NCBI RefSeq assembly: GCF_034661295.1
Contig: NZ_CP141062.1
Coordinates: 1,116,001-1,180,000 of the forward strand
Direction: 5' to 3'
DNA length: 64,000 nucleotides
Source of the DNA: Faecalibacter sp. LW9
GTDB taxonomy: Bacteria > Bacteroidota > Bacteroidia > Flavobacteriales > Weeksellaceae
Shown here piece after piece: positions 8,687-27,543 of the stretch (its first letter is position 1; the number at the start of each line of letters is the position of its first letter). The position numbers were made by a program, and so were the translations under genes. A model generated the notes under the pieces. The model saw nothing but the letters and a program-made list of their open reading frames with translations. It was not told where the DNA came from and searched no databases.

Positions 8687-10075
8687 ATGAATACGATTAT
8701 AATCTCAGCACTTTCAGGAATCATTTTAATGTTTAGTGGTTTCTACATCAAAAACAGTCGTGCGTTAACTTTTATTTCAGCTTTAATGTTTATCGCAATC
8801 ATTATTGGTGGAGTATTCGAATTGAATGGATGCAAGATGTTGGATGGTAGATTCCCAAATATGATTGGAGAGTCGCTTTACGGAGTATCATTTATCATAG
8901 GATTAGCTGCGTTGGCAGTATTCTATTTATTAATCAATAAAGACCAATTTGGGAAAGTTGGAAATCACGTCGGTGAATATTTCGCACTGATTTTCTTCTC
9001 TTTCACAGGAGTTGCTGTTTTAGGGCAATTCAATAATTTGGTTCTAATGTTCTTAGGGATTGAATTAATGTCGATTCCGATGTACATCATTGCCGGAACA
9101 AACAAAGAAAGTTTAAAAAGTACAGAAGCTTCTGTAAAATATTTCTTGATGGGAGCATTTTCAACAGGAATCTTATTATTGGGAATCACATTTTTATACG
9201 GAGCAACAGGAACGTTCTTAGTAGATAACATCGATAAGTTTGATCAAAACTTTGAAATGATTTATTACTTAGGATGGATTTTCATCATCTTCTCGTTCTG
9301 CTTTAAAGTTGGTGCTGCACCTTTCCATATGTGGACACCAGATGTCTATGCAGGTACACCAACAGTTTTTACATCATATATGTCGACAATCGTGAAAGGA
9401 GGATCATTCTTAGGATTTATCTTAGTGATGCAACATTTTCCAGCGAATGCCGAATACAGTGGATACTTAAGAGTTTTATTAGGGGCCATTATCGTCTTGA
9501 CGTTAGTATTAGGGAATTTTGGAGCAGTAACGCAAAAATCAGTAAAGAAAATGATGGCATATTCGTCAATCGCTCAAGCTGGTTTTATGTTGTTCGTTTT
9601 ATTCCAAGTCAATTCAGTTTCTAAAGAAGCGTTATTCTTTTACACAATTGTTTATTCGGTAGCGAATTTCATTATTTTCTATACGATTCAGCAAACAAAA
9701 GCAGAGAAATACGAAGACTTAATTGGATTAGGAAAAGCCAATCCTTTCTTAGCTGCAGCAACTTCTGTAGCCCTAATTTCATTAGCCGGAATCCCTTTAA
9801 CGGGAGGTTTTATTGCGAAGTTTATGGCATTAAGTATTGGTGGAGCAAATGCAGAAAACTTAGTGATTATTGTAATTGCTTTAGTAATGGCGGTATTATC
9901 GATGTACTACTATTTTAAAGTGATTATCCATATGTACTTTAAAGAAGGTCATTCTAACATTAAAACGCAAGATGGTTTAACAACAGCTTTATTGGTTGTC
10001 GGTGTCATTGTTTTAATTCTAATGGGAATTTTCCCAGGAATCTTACCTTCATTTTTAGCAACACCAATGTGGTAA
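8687..10075 (+). CDS. nuoN: NADH-quinone oxidoreductase subunit N
   Basis: NuoN (462 aa) is the third antiporter-like subunit and the last gene of the operon. The typical segments LVLMFLGIELMSIPMYIIAG near residue 115, AAPFHMWTPDVYAGTPT near 207 and TQKSVKKMMAYSSIAQAG near 280 are present. A strong intrinsic terminator begins about 35 bp after the stop, so the complex I transcript is expected to end there. Confidence 0.97.
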   Translation: MNTIIISALSGIILMFSGFYIKNSRALTFISALMFIAIIIGGVFELNGCKMLDGRFPNMIGESLYGVSFIIGLAALAVFYLLINKDQFGKVGNHVGEYFALIFFSFTGVAVLGQFNNLVLMFLGIELMSIPMYIIAGTNKESLKSTEASVKYFLMGAFSTGILLLGITFLYGATGTFLVDNIDKFDQNFEMIYYLGWIFIIFSFCFKVGAAPFHMWTPDVYAGTPTVFTSYMSTIVKGGSFLGFILVMQHFPANAEYSGYLRVLLGAIIVLTLVLGNFGAVTQKSVKKMMAYSSIAQAGFMLFVLFQVNSVSKEALFFYTIVYSVANFIIFYTIQQTKAEKYEDLIGLGKANPFLAAATSVALISLAGIPLTGGFIAKFMALSIGGANAENLVIIVIALVMAVLSMYYYFKVIIHMYFKEGHSNIKTQDGLTTALLVVGVIVLILMGIFPGILPSFLATPMW

Positions 10076-10108
10076 ATATAGAAAACAACTAAATTCTCAC
10101 CCATAAAG

Positions 10109-10154
10109 TGAAAAAGCTCGGTTGAATCGAAAGAGGATACCGAGCTTTTTTTGT
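10109..10154 (+). terminator. Intrinsic terminator after nuoN; copy 1 of a 46-bp direct repeat
   Basis: An 11-bp perfect stem (10111-10121 with 10140-10150) and an 18-nt loop are followed by a T-run. The whole 46-bp block, loop included, occurs again without a mismatch at 11125-11170, on the other side of the next gene. Confidence 0.9.
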
Positions 10155-10201
10155 TTATCATAATCAATGTTGTTATATTGAAATTCAATAATTTATTAAT
10201 T

Positions 10202-11107
10202 ATGCCAACTAACTTATCTATTAAAAGAGTATTATTATTTCTGTTTTATTCTTTTTGCCTTGCAATTTTATTAAGAATTACTGTATTCGGGAACACAAAT
10301 TACAATATGTATACTTGTTTTATCGGATTAAGCATTACAGTGATAAGTACTTATTGGATACAGAAAGAAGAAATGTTTTCTTTATCAATTTTAGATAAAA
10401 TACTTTTAATAGTAGGACCAATTTTTTTCTTTTTAAATACGTGGTTAGATGAGGATATGATGTATAATTTTCTTCAACCTTATTCGATAGGAACTATTTT
10501 AATTCTTTTAAATGTTTTCGTGTTTAAAGATTTAAAAAAGTTTAGGAATGCGATCGTTTTATTCTTGATTATCTTAAGTTATAGTAAGTTAAAATATGAG
10601 AATTGGCAATACTATCGATTTGAAGATTGGAGAGATAAAGCTGTATTGCTTCATATCAATAAAGAGAATGATACCATTAATACAGATATCGATTTAGCTC
10701 AATTTAATTTTATTGACACAAAATTAGATACGATTAAATTATCCAAACAAAAACCTTATACATTTATTATTACGTGGGATGAATATTGCAGATTTTGTAA
10801 AACAGCTTTTAAGGATTTAAATCCTGTATTAGAAAAATATCCAAATGTTGAAAAATACTACGTCTATAATTTTAAGAAATATCAGCCAAAATCTTTTATC
10901 GATAGTTACAAAAATCAATCAATATTAGCAGACAAAAATGTAGTCGCAGATTATAATTATTCTTTTACAAAACATATTGGAATATTTGGAAATCCAACTT
11001 TTATTGTAATCAATAATCAAACGAATAAGATGGTTTATTTAGGAGGAGGATATAGTGATTATACTAAAAAAACTTTGATTGAAACTTTAGACCAATCAAA
11101 TAAATAG
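10202..11107 (+). CDS. Membrane protein with C-terminal thioredoxin-like domain (CRFC)
   Basis: I do not recognise a named family. With the ATG at 10202 the product is 301 aa; an upstream in-frame TTG at 10151 lies inside the terminator repeat and is unlikely to be used. About four transmembrane helices occupy residues 10-140, then a C-terminal domain resembles a thiol-oxidoreductase fold: TFIITWDEYCRFCKTAF has a CxxC motif in the expected place after a beta strand, and NPTFIVIN supplies the cis-Pro-like segment. The likely role is membrane-anchored thiol redox chemistry in the periplasm, which is inference. The gene is more AT-rich than its neighbours and lies between identical 46-bp terminators, suggesting it was added between nuoN and the M1 peptidase gene. 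Confidence 0.75.
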   Translation: MPTNLSIKRVLLFLFYSFCLAILLRITVFGNTNYNMYTCFIGLSITVISTYWIQKEEMFSLSILDKILLIVGPIFFFLNTWLDEDMMYNFLQPYSIGTILILLNVFVFKDLKKFRNAIVLFLIILSYSKLKYENWQYYRFEDWRDKAVLLHINKENDTINTDIDLAQFNFIDTKLDTIKLSKQKPYTFIITWDEYCRFCKTAFKDLNPVLEKYPNVEKYYVYNFKKYQPKSFIDSYKNQSILADKNVVADYNYSFTKHIGIFGNPTFIVINNQTNKMVYLGGGYSDYTKKTLIETLDQSNK

Positions 11108-11124
11108 AAAAATAGCATTGAAAA

Positions 11125-11170
11125 TGAAAAAGCTCGGTTGAATCGAAAGAGGATACCGAGCTTTTTTTGT
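11125..11170 (+). terminator. Intrinsic terminator; copy 2 of the 46-bp direct repeat
   Basis: The 46 bases are identical to 10109-10154: the same 11-bp stem, 18-nt loop and T-run. It lies 17 bp after the thioredoxin-fold gene and insulates the following peptidase gene. Confidence 0.9.
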
Positions 11171-11205
11171 AAGTTTGAAATACTAAAGTTTATAGAAAAG
11201 TTAAC

Positions 11206-13062
11206 ATGAGAAAATTTACACTAATTCTGTGCTTATTCTTGGTGCAATTTGTATTTGCACAACGCAAAGGATATTGGCAACAAAAGGTGGATTACAAAAT
11301 GACGATTGATGTAAAAGACGATTTATATCAATACGATGGAAAAATGAAGTTGAAGTACACAAACAATTCAGGTCAAAGCTTGAATAAAGTGTATTTTCAT
11401 TTATACTTTAACGCGTTTCAACCAGGTTCGATGATGGATTACCGTTTAGCAAACATCGCTGATCCAGATAAGCGTATGGTTTCTAACATTGGAACAAAAG
11501 AAAATCCTAAAATGCAATCGCGTATCGCGACTTTAGGGACAGATAATATGGGTTACCAAAAGATTAAATCGTTAACACAAAACGGGAAGGCAACTTCTTA
11601 CAAAGTGGACGGAACAATCTTAGAAGTAACATTAGCAACACCAATCAAACCAGGAAAATCAACAACGTTTGATATGGTTTGGGAAGCGCAAGTACCAGAA
11701 CAAATTCGTCGTTCAGGACGTAACTCAAAAGAAGGAGTGGCATATTCAATGACACAATGGTATCCAAAAATGGCTCAATTTGATGAGTTCGGATGGCATT
11801 TAGACGAATATGTAGGACGTGAGTTTATCGCTCCATTCGGAAACTTCGATGTAACAATTAACATCGGAAAAGATTATGTAATTGGTTCATCAGGTGTTTT
11901 ACAAAATCCAAAAGAAGTCAAAGGATACGATGCAAATGCAAAAATTGTTGAAAAAAACGGAAAAGCATCTTGGAACTTTAAAGCTACAAACATTCACGAT
12001 TTTGCGTGGGCTGCAGATAAAGACTTTGTCGTAGATCAAGGAACTTCAAAAGGTGGAGTAAAAGTATACTTAGTGTACAAACCAGGAGAGAAAACTACAA
12101 AAGTGTGGAAAGAAGCAATGCCTTATGCCACAGAATTCTTTGACTATTCAGCAAAGAAATTTGGAGCTTATCCATGGCCAACATACACAGTTGTACAAGG
12201 TGGCGACGGTGGTATGGAGTACGGAACGGCTACTTTAGTAACAGGTGAAAGAAACTTAGAGTCATTAGTAGGTGTAATATTCCACGAAGCGGCACACTCT
12301 TGGTACCAACATTTATTCGGAATCAATGAGACAGTTGATGAATGGTTCGATGAAGGTTTTACATCATATGTGGAGAACTTAGCATCATTACAAGTTTTAG
12401 AAAAACAGCAAACTATTCCATCGAATCCTAATTTAGGAGCTTACAAAGGATATGTAGCGTTAGCATTATCAGGTAAAGAAGAACCTGCAAGTTTATTAGC
12501 AGATTATTATAATACAAACTATGCGTATTCGTTAGAAGCTTACTACAAAGGTCAAGTTTTAGCGATACAATTGGGATACATCATTGGACAAGAAAACTTA
12601 GATAAAACATTCTTAGAATTCTATAACCAATGGAAATTTAAACACCCAACAGCAAACGACTTCAAGCGTGTAGCAGAAGAAGTTTCTGGAATTAACTTAA
12701 AATGGTATTTCAACTTATTCATCAATACAACACGTAAAATTGATTATGCAATTGAAAATGTACAAGGAAACACATTCCAAGTCGTAAACAAATCAGATTT
12801 TGCAATGCCTTTAGATGTATTAGTGGAATATACAGACGGAACAAAAGAGTTATTTTACATTCCATTACGTGAAATGCGCGGAGAAAAACCAGCAGAAAAT
12901 TTAGTGGAATACCAAGGTGTTAAACGTACCGTTCTAACAGATGCTTTCTGGACAAATCCTGTTTACGAAGTAAAAGCATCGAAAGCAATAAAAACAATTG
13001 TTATTGATCCTACACAGCGTTTAGCAGATGTAGATTATACAAACAACGTATATAAAAACTAA
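11206..13062 (+). CDS. M1 family metallopeptidase (secreted aminopeptidase)
   Basis: This 618-aa zinc aminopeptidase-like protein begins with a signal peptide (about residues 1-18, ending at FAQ). The gluzincin zinc site is complete: HEAAH near residue 360 followed exactly 18 residues later by the third ligand Glu (in DEWFDEGF). The substrate-binding loop equivalent to the GxMEN motif reads GGMEYG about 25 residues before the zinc motif. It probably removes N-terminal residues from peptides in the periplasm or at the outer membrane. Its stop overlaps the coaX start (TAATG), so the two are cotranscribed, although their functions look unrelated. Confidence 0.92.
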   Translation: MRKFTLILCLFLVQFVFAQRKGYWQQKVDYKMTIDVKDDLYQYDGKMKLKYTNNSGQSLNKVYFHLYFNAFQPGSMMDYRLANIADPDKRMVSNIGTKENPKMQSRIATLGTDNMGYQKIKSLTQNGKATSYKVDGTILEVTLATPIKPGKSTTFDMVWEAQVPEQIRRSGRNSKEGVAYSMTQWYPKMAQFDEFGWHLDEYVGREFIAPFGNFDVTINIGKDYVIGSSGVLQNPKEVKGYDANAKIVEKNGKASWNFKATNIHDFAWAADKDFVVDQGTSKGGVKVYLVYKPGEKTTKVWKEAMPYATEFFDYSAKKFGAYPWPTYTVVQGGDGGMEYGTATLVTGERNLESLVGVIFHEAAHSWYQHLFGINETVDEWFDEGFTSYVENLASLQVLEKQQTIPSNPNLGAYKGYVALALSGKEEPASLLADYYNTNYAYSLEAYYKGQVLAIQLGYIIGQENLDKTFLEFYNQWKFKHPTANDFKRVAEEVSGINLKWYFNLFINTTRKIDYAIENVQGNTFQVVNKSDFAMPLDVLVEYTDGTKELFYIPLREMRGEKPAENLVEYQGVKRTVLTDAFWTNPVYEVKASKAIKTIVIDPTQRLADVDYTNNVYKN

Positions 13063-13837: not shown

Positions 13838-14875
13838 ATGTTACCCAATTTAACATCTTTACGATTTTTTCTAGCATTATTTGTGGTATTATTTCATTTA
13901 TCTGAATTTGCATTAAATAGAGGTTTTCCATATTATAATAATCACCCTATTTTTTTTAAGGGAAATGAAGCGGTTTATGTATTTTTCACATTAAGCGGTT
14001 TTTTAATCATTAGAAATTTGATTAGAGAGAAATTTACTTTTGGAAAAATAAATCTTATTCAATTTTATAAGAAAAGAGCATTAAGGATATTTCCATTATA
14101 TTATTTAGTTTTATTTATAGGATTGGTATATTATAACTTGATTCTTCAATTTTTTGGATTTGAATTTGAAAGGAAATACAATCTTGTAGAAGGAATATTT
14201 CAAGGGATATTTTTTCTACCGAATATTTTAGCAAATGATCAACCAGGTGGAATTTTAGAAGTATTATGGTCAATAGGTATTGAAGAACAATTTTATCTGA
14301 TTATTGCTCCAATATTTTTCTTAATCAATAGAAAATATATTTTACTTTTTTTAATTGGATTTACATTTATTTATGCTTTAATTTTTCATTTAAAAGTATT
14401 ACCATTCTTAATCCAATATAGAATGTATTTTTATTTTTTCTCTATGGGTGGAATATTAAGTTTTATTGAATTTAAGAATTTCAATAAATTAGATTATAAA
14501 ATTCTTGAAATTCTAAATTATACGATATTTATAATCATATTTTTTACGAATATCTTTCAAGAGAACTTAAGTGATTTGGGGTTACATTTATTGTATTCCT
14601 TAAATTTTTCTGCTACAATTTATTATCTTTCAAAGAAATCTATTCCTATTTTAGATTCAAAGGTGTTGAATTATTTAGGCTCTATTTCATATGGGATTTA
14701 TATGTATCATGCAATTATATTTCAGGTTGTTGGTTTTATTTTTTTAAATATAAAGATTAACAATGATTCATTACACATCGTTTTATTTTATAGTTTAGTG
14801 ATTAGTATGACAATATTAATATCGTCTCTTTCTTATAAATATTTTGAAAGTTACTTTCTCAAATTAAATGACTAG
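13838..14875 (+). CDS. Acyltransferase 3 family membrane protein, last codons supplied by an IS element
   Basis: This 345-aa integral membrane protein has about ten hydrophobic segments and the family signature of OafA-like acyltransferases: an early His in VVLFHLSEF, RRI-like KKRALRIFPLYYLVL, and LWSIGIEEQFYLI in the middle. Members transfer acetyl or other acyl groups to sugars of cell-surface polysaccharide or lipid; the substrate here is unknown. Its base composition is distinctly more AT-rich than coaX, which suggests acquisition. The final residues N-D-stop are encoded by the left end of the insertion element at 14869; rejoining the flanks would give K-stop instead, so the protein is essentially intact. 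Confidence 0.85.
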   Translation: MLPNLTSLRFFLALFVVLFHLSEFALNRGFPYYNNHPIFFKGNEAVYVFFTLSGFLIIRNLIREKFTFGKINLIQFYKKRALRIFPLYYLVLFIGLVYYNLILQFFGFEFERKYNLVEGIFQGIFFLPNILANDQPGGILEVLWSIGIEEQFYLIIAPIFFLINRKYILLFLIGFTFIYALIFHLKVLPFLIQYRMYFYFFSMGGILSFIEFKNFNKLDYKILEILNYTIFIIIFFTNIFQENLSDLGLHLLYSLNFSATIYYLSKKSIPILDSKVLNYLGSISYGIYMYHAIIFQVVGFIFLNIKINNDSLHIVLFYSLVISMTILISSLSYKYFESYFLKLND

Positions 14876-14894
14876 TCCTAAAATAGATTGACAG
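14869..14894. repeat. Left terminal inverted repeat of the IS element
   Basis: This end reads TGACTAGTCCTAAAATA and continues to TTGACAG. It includes the TAG that now ends the acyltransferase gene. It pairs with 16149-16174 at 19 of 26 positions. Confidence 0.8.
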
Positions 14895-14908
14895 TTATTA
14901 AACAATAT

Positions 14909-15724
14909 TTATATCTGAAGAGATTTTATTTCTTCGGATTTTTTGTGTCTCATTTCAGGGGTCTGCATATTGAGACTCAAATGAGGTCGTGTGTTATTAT
15001 AAAGATACACACTTTGTTCTACCATTTTGGTTAATTCAGTAATATCTTTTGTTTTTTCGATTAAAAACTCTTGTTTCAATATCCCATTAATTCTTTCCGC
15101 TAAAGCATTTTGATAACAATCATAGCCGTCTGTCATCGATGGTATGATCTGATTTTGTTTTAAAATTGTCTGATAATATTCCGAGCAATACTGTAAGCCT
15201 CTATCCGAATGATGGATTAATTTCTCATTATTTATTCTATTTTTAATAGCCATTTTTAGCGCTATAGATACATTTTCCGCATTCATATTTTCACTTACAG
15301 AATAACCCATTATTTTTCGACTATAAGCATCTGTCACTAAAGAAAGATAACAAACGGCTTGCTTGGTTTTTACATACGTTATATCACTTACAAAGACCTG
15401 TTCTGGTTTATTAATCTCTATTTCTTTGTATAAATTAGGATGTTTCCTTAACCAATGTTTAGAGAATGTGGTTCTTGTGTATTGTTTTTTAGGTGTTATA
15501 AGTAAATTTTCTCTTCTCAGATAATCAAACAAAGCATCTCGACCCATCTTTATGTTTAGCTCTTTTAGCTGTTCATTCAGAATATAATAAAGCTTTCGAG
15601 TTCCTATTCTTGGTAATTTTATTCGAACTTCTAGAACTAATTTTTTAACCTGTAAAAGCTCTGATTCTCGAATAGAATGACGTTTTAGTGCAGCATAGAA
15701 ACTTTGGCGACTTAACCCAAGCAA
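14909..15724 (-). CDS. IS3-family transposase OrfB (DDE integrase domain)
   Basis: OrfB is the catalytic part of the transposase. A helix-turn-helix-like start (LGLSRQSFYAALKR) precedes the RNase H-like integrase core, with the DDE residues visible in FVSDITYVKT, IHHSDRGLQYCS and NALAERINGILKQEF. The listed start at 15724 is only the first start-like codon (TTG). The frame is open upstream to the frameshift site at 15787-15793, so the functional product is probably the OrfAB fusion of about 390 aa (about 115 from OrfA and 293 in the OrfB frame). The conserved residues and uninterrupted frame suggest an active enzyme. Confidence 0.92.
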   Translation of the reverse strand: MLGLSRQSFYAALKRHSIRESELLQVKKLVLEVRIKLPRIGTRKLYYILNEQLKELNIKMGRDALFDYLRRENLLITPKKQYTRTTFSKHWLRKHPNLYKEIEINKPEQVFVSDITYVKTKQAVCYLSLVTDAYSRKIMGYSVSENMNAENVSIALKMAIKNRINNEKLIHHSDRGLQYCSEYYQTILKQNQIIPSMTDGYDCYQNALAERINGILKQEFLIEKTKDITELTKMVEQSVYLYNNTRPHLSLNMQTPEMRHKKSEEIKSLQI

Positions 15725-15744
15725 TCGACATGAGCAAGAAACAG

Positions 15745-16134
15745 TTATTTCTTGTTTTTGGAGTTTGAGGATTGTTGGGTATTGTACTTTTTTCTGATTT
15801 GAGTACCAAGCTGTTCATCGGCTATATCAATCATTGTATTAAGTATTTTGACTCTTAGCTTTTCATCAGCCAATTCTTGTTCTAACCGTTTAATTTTTTG
15901 CGCTGGAGTTTCTTCTGATTTTGACATAGTATGAATAACTGGTTTGCTCCAATCTAAGTTACCATATTTTCTGAGCCAAACCAAAACTGTACTTCTTCCT
16001 TGTATTCCATAGCATTTTTGAGCTTGTTTGTAAGTAAAGTCGCCTTTTTCTATTTGGGATACAACGGCTAATTTAAAGCCTAAGGTGTAATCGCGTTGTG
16101 TTCTCTTTTTTCTTTCTGAATCTGATGAGTTCAT
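15745..16134 (-). CDS. IS3-family transposase OrfA (helix-turn-helix protein)
   Basis: OrfA (129 aa from the ATG at 16134; a TTG at 16155 would add seven residues) carries an N-terminal helix-turn-helix for binding the element's ends (YTLGFKLAVVSQIEKGDF, then the segment with GIQGRSTVLVWLRKYG) and a C-terminal leucine-zipper-like coiled coil (IKRLEQELADEKLRVKIL). The reading frame ends at 15745, past the slippery heptamer, so OrfA alone is made when ribosomes do not shift. Confidence 0.88.
   Translation of the reverse strand: MNSSDSERKKRTQRDYTLGFKLAVVSQIEKGDFTYKQAQKCYGIQGRSTVLVWLRKYGNLDWSKPVIHTMSKSEETPAQKIKRLEQELADEKLRVKILNTMIDIADEQLGTQIRKKYNTQQSSNSKNKK
15787..15793 (-). other. Programmed -1 frameshift site (A_AAA_AAG) joining orfA and orfB
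   Basis: On the minus strand the heptamer A AAA AAG lies in the OrfA phase (AGA AAA AAG). A -1 slip puts ribosomes into the OrfB frame, which reads VQYPTILKLQKQE and on into the OrfB helix-turn-helix with no stop. This is the standard arrangement for making the OrfAB transposase in the IS3 family. Confidence 0.85.
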
Positions 16135-16148
16135 AATAAGTTGATTTA

Positions 16149-16174
16149 GTGTCAACTTATTTCAGGACGGGACA
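16149..16174. repeat. Right terminal inverted repeat of the IS element
   Basis: On the minus strand this end reads TGTCCCGTCCTGAAATA and continues to TTGACAC. It lies just upstream of orfA and probably overlaps the transposase promoter. Confidence 0.8.
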
Positions 16175-25932: not shown

Positions 25933-25984
25933 TTTCGTTGATTGCTAACAAAATCTTAAAAATTTGTTAGCTAATTTTATCAAA

Positions 25985-27511
25985 ATGAGTCAACAATTAA
26001 CTTTAGAAGAAATTCAGAATTTTAAAGGAAAATATCCAAGACAAATTTGGAGTCTTTTCTTTTCTGAAATGTGGGAGAGATTCTGTTTTTACGGAATGCG
26101 AGGAATGTTGGTTTTCTTCATGATCGATCAGCTGAAATTAGCCGAAGGTCAATCCCAATTACAATATGCAGCAATACAAGCTTTTGTTTATGCATTTACT
26201 TTCGTTGGTGGATTATTCGCAGATAAAATATTAGGTTTTAGAAAATCTTTATTTTGGGGAGGTTCGCTAATGATTTTAGGAAGTATTTTACTTTCTGCCG
26301 ATCCTCATTCGTTATTTTTCTTAGGAATTGCATTTACAGTTGTTGGAACTGGTTTCTTTAAACCAAATATTTCGACAATGGTAGGAGAGTTGTACAAGAA
26401 AGGAGATGAGCGTACAGATGCAGGTTTTTCATTGTTTTATGCGGGTATTAATATTGGTGCTTTTATCGGTGGATATTTATGTATCGCCATAGGTAAAGGT
26501 CATATTTTCAGTGATATAATTGATGTTGCACATCGTTGGAATGTTGCTTTTGGATTAGCAGCTTTTGTCATGTTAATCAGTTTAATCAACTTTCACTTTA
26601 CCAAAAAAAGTTTAGGTCCGATTGGTTTACAACCAGAAGAAACAAATCAAAACGGAGAGAAAGTAAAAATGCCATTATGGAAAGAATTAGCCGTTTATGG
26701 AGGTTCAATCCTTTCTATTCCATTAATTATGGCAATGGTTAAAAACACTGATTATACTGATTATTTCATGTATACAATTGGACCATTAACATTACTTTAC
26801 TTGTTTTACGAGATGACAAAAGTAACGAATGCTGAACGCAAGAAATTGGTTGCAGCATTGGTGTTTATTTTCTTCTCTATATTGTTCTGGGGAATTTATG
26901 AACAGGCAGGAGGTTCATTAACAATATTTGCAGCAAATAATTTAGATTCTAGTTTATTAGGTGTTAATTTAGATCCAAATGGAGTTAATAATTCAGGTGG
27001 AGCCTTATTTATAATTTTCTTAGCGCCTGTTTTTGGAGCACTTTGGATTTGGTTATCAAAACGTAAATTAAACCCAAATACAGTAATCAAATTTGGTTTA
27101 GGATTTATCTTCTTAGGATTAGGCTACTATGTATTGTTTGCAACACGTTTTTTTGCAGATGCAGCAGGTATTACATCATTAGATTTCTTTACATTAGCTT
27201 TATTGGTAATTACTTTTGGAGAACTTTGTTTATCACCCATTGGATTATCAATCATGACGAAATTATCGACTGATAATTTACAAGGTGTAATGATGGGAAT
27301 GTGGTTCTTAGCATCAGCATATGGGCAATATGTTGCTGGAATTATTGGAGCTAATATGTCTAATTCTGTTGTCGAAGGCGGAAATAATTTAGACAAATTA
27401 ATGTCTTACACAGATGGATATAAAGAAATTGCACTATACGCAATAATTGCTGGTGTTGTTTTAATTGTAATTTCTCCATTGATTCGTAAATTAATGCAAG
27501 AAGTAAAATAG
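25985..27511 (+). CDS. POT family proton-dependent peptide transporter (copy 2)
   Basis: This 508-aa transporter has the POT motifs SEMWERFCFYGMRGML near residue 23 and the PTR2 signature FYAGINIGAFIGGYLCIAIG near 155. I chose the ATG at 25985 and not the in-frame TTG at 25964, because the ATG product aligns with the starts of the other two copies. It is the most diverged of the three: the signature phenylalanine replaces tyrosine in the ERFxYY motif and the central loop is shorter than in copy 3. It has no terminator before copy 3, which starts 32 bp downstream. Confidence 0.93.
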   Translation: MSQQLTLEEIQNFKGKYPRQIWSLFFSEMWERFCFYGMRGMLVFFMIDQLKLAEGQSQLQYAAIQAFVYAFTFVGGLFADKILGFRKSLFWGGSLMILGSILLSADPHSLFFLGIAFTVVGTGFFKPNISTMVGELYKKGDERTDAGFSLFYAGINIGAFIGGYLCIAIGKGHIFSDIIDVAHRWNVAFGLAAFVMLISLINFHFTKKSLGPIGLQPEETNQNGEKVKMPLWKELAVYGGSILSIPLIMAMVKNTDYTDYFMYTIGPLTLLYLFYEMTKVTNAERKKLVAALVFIFFSILFWGIYEQAGGSLTIFAANNLDSSLLGVNLDPNGVNNSGGALFIIFLAPVFGALWIWLSKRKLNPNTVIKFGLGFIFLGLGYYVLFATRFFADAAGITSLDFFTLALLVITFGELCLSPIGLSIMTKLSTDNLQGVMMGMWFLASAYGQYVAGIIGANMSNSVVEGGNNLDKLMSYTDGYKEIALYAIIAGVVLIVISPLIRKLMQEVK

Positions 27512-27543
27512 TAAAAACGAAAAATAAATATAAAACAATCAAA

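Follow-up and report, generated by a model that had tools for sequence, protein, structure and literature searches.

A single-gene insert between two copies of a terminator-like element at the nuoN-M1 peptidase border of Faecalibacter sp. LW9

The border between the nuo operon and an M1 family peptidase gene in Faecalibacter sp. LW9 carries two copies of a hairpin element, identical over 46 bp, with one gene between them, and in three related genomes the same border holds a single copy and no gene. We consider it likely that a single, probably foreign gene was inserted at this border with duplication of the border element, most likely by ordinary recombination of a short incoming fragment. The window analysed is a stretch of 64,000 nucleotides (contig NZ_CP141062.1, positions 1,116,001 to 1,180,000), and positions of up to five digits refer to it. 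The genus set consisted of 14 genomes including the window's own (G000), of which G000, G001, G006 and G007 constitute the close group; the other ten show 74-75% identity in the nuoN protein.

A duplicated terminator-like hairpin

Copy 1 of the element (10105..10154, + strand) follows nuoN (8687..10075, + strand; 462 aa; named after the earlier note and its Pfam family, Proton_antipo_M, E 4.5e-61), the last gene of the upstream operon, and is taken to end that operon. Copy 2 (11121..11170, + strand) lies 3' of the inserted gene, and its T-run directly precedes the candidate -7 box of the downstream M1 family peptidase gene (11206..13062, + strand; 618 aa; Pfam Peptidase_M1, E 5.1e-16). The earlier note on this DNA had described identical 46-bp terminators around one gene, and this was confirmed: positions 10109-10154 and 11125-11170 agree at 46 of 46 bp with a start-to-start distance of 1016 bp, and on extension to 50 bp (10105-10154 versus 11121-11170) 49 of 50 bases match. 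The pair is the longest among the three listed exact repeats of at least 20 bases in the window. With up to 3 mismatches allowed, the loop 18-mer occurs twice in the window (mean 0.17, and never 2, in 100 shuffles), and the complete genome (3,172,297 bp) contains two matches to the 21-bp core (reversed-pattern control, 0).

Each copy folds at -19.8 kcal/mol (z = -5.58). Among the four close species, the hairpin energies range from -17.9 to -20.9 kcal/mol on the + strand, compared with -6.2 to -16.2 on the other strand, and the substitutions found in the relatives preserve the hairpin pairing as + strand RNA. With a stable stem followed by a T-run, and with differences between species that keep the pairing on this strand, the element resembles an intrinsic terminator of + strand transcription.

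The loop had been thought to lack any structural reason for conservation, a view that did not hold. It is predicted to fold into a 2-bp stem with a GAAA cap within a symmetric internal loop, where sheared G-A pairs would presumably form, and its 14-nt core GAATCGAAAGAGGA is the same in all four close species; the U-U mismatch flanking this core is replaced by A-U in G007 and by U-A in G006. Extreme conservation of the element was considered but would be too strong a description, as the ranks are above average and not exceptional: among the 49 hairpins aligned with G006, the copies take places 12 and 13 (92%, where the median is 83%), and among the 108 aligned with G001, places 4 and 5. A search of Rfam gave four matches, all at no more than half of the gathering score.

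The inserted gene

The unique insert comprises 966 bp (10155..11120, + strand), has no terminal inverted repeat, and is not found at this place in G001, G006 and G007. Only one open reading frame of at least 80 aa lies within it, the cargo gene (10202..11107, + strand), which encodes a protein of 301 aa. Its N-terminal half is helical and probably spans the membrane, and its C-terminal half is thioredoxin-like. The latter contains a CxxC motif at residues 196-199, both cysteines of which are invariant in two relatives, and matches Pfam Thioredoxin_2 with an E value of 2.2e-5 and 25.2 bits, slightly below the 27-bit cut-off. The only NCBIfam match, PedC_BrcD, reached 15.3 of 120 bits and is far under its cut-off, and neither PADLOC nor a PDB sequence search gave a match to the protein. 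The N-terminal half appears as helices in a low-confidence model (AlphaFold2 from the single sequence, pLDDT 42), and its membrane-spanning look was judged by eye. From these features, a membrane-anchored disulfide exchange protein would be the natural guess. The G+C content of the cargo gene is 24.8%, compared with 34.8% for nuoN and 35.6% for the M1 gene, which bears out the earlier remark that it is more AT-rich than its neighbours at about 35%.

The cargo gene was not found in the 13 other genomes of the genus (E <= 0.001). In the family, homologues were found in 2 of the 295 other genomes at 32-34% identity (E <= 1e-6), both in other genera and in unrelated neighbourhoods. Among 72,556 plasmid records there was one match, on a Persicobacter plasmid, with 27% identity, and none was found in 50,697 phage records or, by peptide patterns, in genome_contigs and viral_contigs. 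A search with a three-sequence alignment in 395 genomes of the order and 395 of the phylum returned only the window's own gene at E <= 1e-10, where distant members may be missed, as no more than 5 candidates were scored for almost every genome shown. Of the features of an acquired single-gene insertion, an empty site, absence from relatives and deviant composition are thus all present; a donor in the form of a close homologue was not found in these searches, the nearest relatives of the protein being 27-34% identical. The gene is probably of foreign origin.

Empty sites in related genomes and the direction of change

In G001, G006 and G007, the nuoN stop codon and the M1 gene are 112-114 bp apart, with a single hairpin copy and no gene in between. 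When the cargo is removed, the flanks of the window, to the left of copy 1 and to the right of copy 2, align with these empty sites across the whole border with few substitutions and single-base gaps. An insertion of a unit of about 1 kb with an extra terminator between nuoN and the M1 gene had been proposed, together with a comparison of synteny in relatives as a check. The outcome of this comparison, one terminator and no gene in 3 of the 13 other genomes, is what an insertion predicts, and the absence of the cargo from all 13 agrees with it.

The element itself is equally restricted. Its 30-mer, with up to 3 mismatches, is present in 4 of 296 family genomes, at the nuoN-M1 locus each time, and was found neither in the 10 other genomes of the genus nor in the other 282 of the 296. 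A looser search of the genus with a 21-mer also gave G011 and G013 at 3 mismatches, both at places without such a hairpin. A pattern search returned, among named genomes, Faecalibacter rhinopitheci and Faecalibacter macacae at the nuoN-M1 locus and two unrelated places, as well as one unrelated viral contig; neither the viral match nor the two unrelated places correspond to a matching hairpin. The alternative of a mobile terminator family, which the earlier note had raised, was therefore rejected: the genome contains two copies, the family sample has the element at one and the same locus, and no scattered copies were detected.

As the window genome alone has the gene, a single gain is simpler than two or three losses whichever flank is used for the relationships. 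On the nuoN side (2.9 kb), G006 is the outgroup of the four genomes (82.6-83.1% versus 94.1-94.8% identity), and the fact that this outgroup is empty favours gain. The position of G006 holds for the nuoN side only and is not borne out by the distances on the M1 side, where the identities are 87.2% for G000-G007, 85.1% for G001-G006 and 82.2% for G000-G001. At one stem position both window copies have A while all three relatives have G, and the shared A fits a single element copied after that change. The identity of the two copies fits a recent event, which it cannot date or prove, since even between the window and G007 the element shows just 2 changes in 46 bases. The most likely direction of change is a gain in this lineage, accompanied by duplication of the terminator.

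The terminator and the putative border of the M1 promoter

Both nuoN and the M1 peptidase gene are present in 14 of 14 genomes of the genus. The sequence TAAGTTTG (11170..11177, + strand), which overlaps the end of copy 2 by its first T, is a candidate -7 box for the M1 gene and the sole match to TAnnTTTG on the + strand in 10076-11206; TAnnTTTG is given as the -7 box of the main sigma factor of a flavobacterium in PMC9723704. A TAnnTTTG box is located one or two bases past the T-run before the M1 gene in all 14 genomes, including G003, G004, G008 and G009, in which, by eye, no matching hairpin is left. No TTG is present 17-23 nt upstream of TAAGTTTG. Judged from the sequence, this box would belong to the M1 promoter. 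In the four close species, one element thus seems to serve both as the nuo terminator and as part of the border of the M1 promoter, and the two would be fused because the box begins at the last base of copy 2. With a fused border, a tolerated insertion would have had to duplicate the element, which would explain the duplication.

The earlier note had speculated that the TTTG at the end of each copy could act as a -33 box. The TTTG of copy 2 was excluded as a -33 box of the M1 gene because it touches the M1 -7 box. For the cargo gene, TATATTGA (10174..10181, + strand) is a weak and speculative candidate -7 box, located 20 nt past the TTTG of copy 1 and 20 nt upstream of the start codon, with a poor match to the consensus.

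The M1 proteins of G002, G008, G010 and G011 are 89-92% identical to that of the window, compared with only 74-75% for the nuoN proteins. The M1 gene thus has a history different from that of nuoN, and the border may also be a recombination breakpoint.

The slot between nuoN and the M1 gene in the other branch

In G002, G005, G010, G011, G012 and G013, a hairpin follows nuoN and a different one precedes the M1 gene (by eye), and the contents of the slot vary. It encodes a 199-aa protein in G005, an esterase-like protein at the contig end in G008, a DUF6266 protein in G004, and a WG-repeat protein with IS-like genes in G009, while G010 and G011 have a remnant resembling the end of the G005 gene. 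The slot of G012 (G012:C24) extends over about 19 kb, with a shortened copy of the G005-type gene followed by genes resembling phage tail genes. Those of G002 (285 bp) and G013 (190 bp) are free of genes, and in G003 nuoN and the M1 gene are separated by about 27 kb of genes, most of them ordinary in appearance, which may be a rearrangement. The nuoN-M1 border looks like a site that tolerates insertions. In the genomes of this branch with cargo in the slot, no duplicated terminator was seen. Two repeats were examined by eye and rejected as such: a 43-bp repeat in G009 is located next to a transposase fragment, at an apparent IS end, and the 1.6-kb stretch with the DUF6266 protein in G004 is bounded by a 25-bp repeat.

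Possible routes to the duplication

In the course of events that we favour, an AT-rich gene would have entered the border of about 113 bp between the nuo operon and the M1 gene, and the border element of 46-50 bp would have been doubled. Copy 1 would still end the nuo operon, and copy 2 would end the new gene and still abut the M1 promoter. An insertion that splits the element would harm either nuo termination or the M1 promoter, while one that duplicates it would spare both, and selection may have kept the two copies. The most likely route would be ordinary recombination with a short piece of incoming DNA on which the gene lay next to a copy of the element, for example after circularization and with one crossover at the element. 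Such a route is what remains because the insert has no second open reading frame of at least 80 aa, no terminal inverted repeat and no attC pair, and the element has no likeness to the CRISPR repeat. For short linear DNA, PMC3240628 describes circularization with single-crossover integration, or integration with homology at one end and none at the other, and the duplications by transformation in PMC3784515 are far longer than the present one. A template switch at the hairpin during replication is a possibility as an alternative route. No second duplicated terminator around a cargo gene was seen in the 464 kb that were scanned (see below), so the route rests on one event. No description of this arrangement was found among the titles of a literature search, and it may exist elsewhere.

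The opposite direction is unlikely. Here the gene, flanked by two copies, would already have been present in the common ancestor, and recombination of the copies would have removed it from G001, G006 and G007, leaving one copy. Recombination of 46-bp direct repeats would yield the observed empty site, in the other branch several genomes show a variable slot with a hairpin on either side, the two being different, and G010 and G011 retain, by eye, the apparent remnant of a gene that is whole in G005. Nevertheless, loss would require two or three separate events whichever flank is used, the copies would have had to stay identical throughout, a search of the other branch found the cargo in none of its 10 genomes, and its composition is much more AT-rich than that of its neighbours. 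We give even less credence to a minimal mobile cassette, in which the terminator is an attachment site and the gene moves as a circle by means of a recombinase acting in trans. The layout of site, gene and site together with the empty site would suit it, and the genome has 10 matches to tyrosine recombinases (PF00589), one of them in a 6.3-kb insertion at tRNA-Leu with a 20-bp repeat; however, all 10 are located outside the insert, which has no recombinase, the element occurs at no other place in the genome or the family sample, the RYYYAAC box of the attC type is absent, and the relatives of the cargo gene in G074 and G088 have no flanking direct repeats of at least 16 bp in the stretches examined. 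A related version, in which the fused terminator-promoter is the recombination site and the gene, as an excisable circle with one terminator and no recombinase of its own, toggles in and out of this locus within the population, is slightly less probable again.

It is very improbable that the cargo brought its own terminator and that gene conversion between partly similar hairpins later made the two identical. The hairpins after nuoN in the genus often share the start AAAAAGCTCG and the end CGAGCTTTTTT of the stem, so that an incoming gene could bring a similar one, but the identity spans the loop and stops at both hairpin edges, and the loop core is the lineage's own, being present also in the three empty-site species. 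The 10-12 bp that the stems share is also a short length for gene conversion. Transposition with an unusually long target-site duplication, or a repeat duplication of the Cas1 type, has an almost negligible probability. A direct repeat of 46-50 bp does bound the 966-bp insert, and the genome contains cas1 and a CRISPR array. Against this, the insert lacks a second open reading frame of at least 80 aa and a terminal inverted repeat (292 of 300 shuffled sequences perform equally well), two IS-like insertions of 1305 bp in the same genome show overlaps of just 2-9 bp (genome position 1130868) and 3 bp (1199070), and the CRISPR repeat of the genome is unrelated to the element. Insertion of one gene with duplication of the border element is accordingly the reading that we retain.

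Relation to known systems

At genomic islands located at the 3' ends of tRNA genes, the element restores the end of the gene and leaves direct repeats. The present case is similar in that the target has a functional end element whose duplication leaves the neighbours working, the insert is flanked by direct repeats, and relatives have an empty site; it differs in that a terminator/promoter border is duplicated, the insert consists of one gene and there is no integrase. An example of such an island in the same genome is the 6.3-kb insertion at the tRNA-Leu end (G000:C1:1217170-1223494), with a 20-bp repeat and a tyrosine-recombinase match at 1222100-1222549. In integron cassettes, the core boxes of attC are RYYYAAC and GTTRRRY, which pair. 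Such cassettes resemble our case in having a single gene beside a hairpin-forming site, whereas here GTTRRRY occurs once, RYYYAAC is absent, and there is no second site in the genome. The integration of circularized fragments by a single crossover and homology-facilitated illegitimate recombination (PMC3240628) are also comparable: one crossover of a small circle at a short homology would yield the order repeat, insert, repeat. Here the outcome alone is seen, with no donor, and the homology would be 46-50 bp.

For the most part this is ordinary gene acquisition, and the interest lies in the duplicated, fused terminator-promoter border. It offers a clean example of how a compact operon border can accept a gene and stay intact: a fused terminator and promoter are duplicated as one element, whereas in the other branch, with the two apart, the cargo lies in the gap. 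If this is a general pattern, recent single-gene acquisitions without transposase or integrase could be found by a simple signature, direct repeats of terminator-promoter borders.

Scan of the surrounding genome

A 464-kb part of the genome (936001-1400000) was aligned to stretches of G001, G006 and G007, giving chains of about 338, 183 and 150 kb, and indels with more than 300 extra bases on one side and fewer than 150 on the other were listed (31, 15 and 10 rows, respectively). Against each of the three, the nuoN site appears as 966 extra bp with a 50-bp overlap, and in the other 53 of the 56 rows the overlap is at most 20 bp, the 20-bp one being that of the 6.3-kb insertion at the tRNA-Leu end. 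The longest exact repeat near the junctions of other insertions of 300-2500 bases is 21 bases. The duplicated terminator is a single event in the scanned sample.

Terminator-like hairpins in the same 464 kb number 130 on one strand and 116 on the other, 246 in total. Among the best 25 matching pairs, the first two are the nuoN-M1 pair and one is a hairpin matched with its own reverse strand; the remainder seem, by eye, to belong to a multi-copy element or to the end of a 5S rRNA gene (13 places were viewed in context). A 111-bp query over one such place gave 13 genomic matches at 98-100%. Exact direct repeats of at least 20 bases within 15 kb amounted to 54 rows, mostly tandem arrays and tRNA genes, among which the nuoN pair is the only recognised terminator outside multi-copy elements.

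Several other features were observed in passing. The 1305-bp insertion at window positions 14868-16174, present relative to G006 and G007, has an internal terminator-like hairpin, and it looks like a multi-copy IS element because the 111-bp stretch has those 13 matches. Relative to G001, a 1542-bp insertion at 25983-27526 of the window has the 11-bp direct repeat ATCAAAATGAG at its two ends. Elsewhere in the genome there is a 61-bp direct repeat at 1260874/1263738, and in G000:C1:1344449-1349633 direct repeats of 20-55 bases are clustered, with distances of about 2.7 and 5.1 kb between them. The CRISPR array (G000:C1:2796697-2799585) has 35 copies of the repeat core, with nine of the first ten spacings being 77 bp, and is adjoined by the cas1 match at 2800167-2800931.
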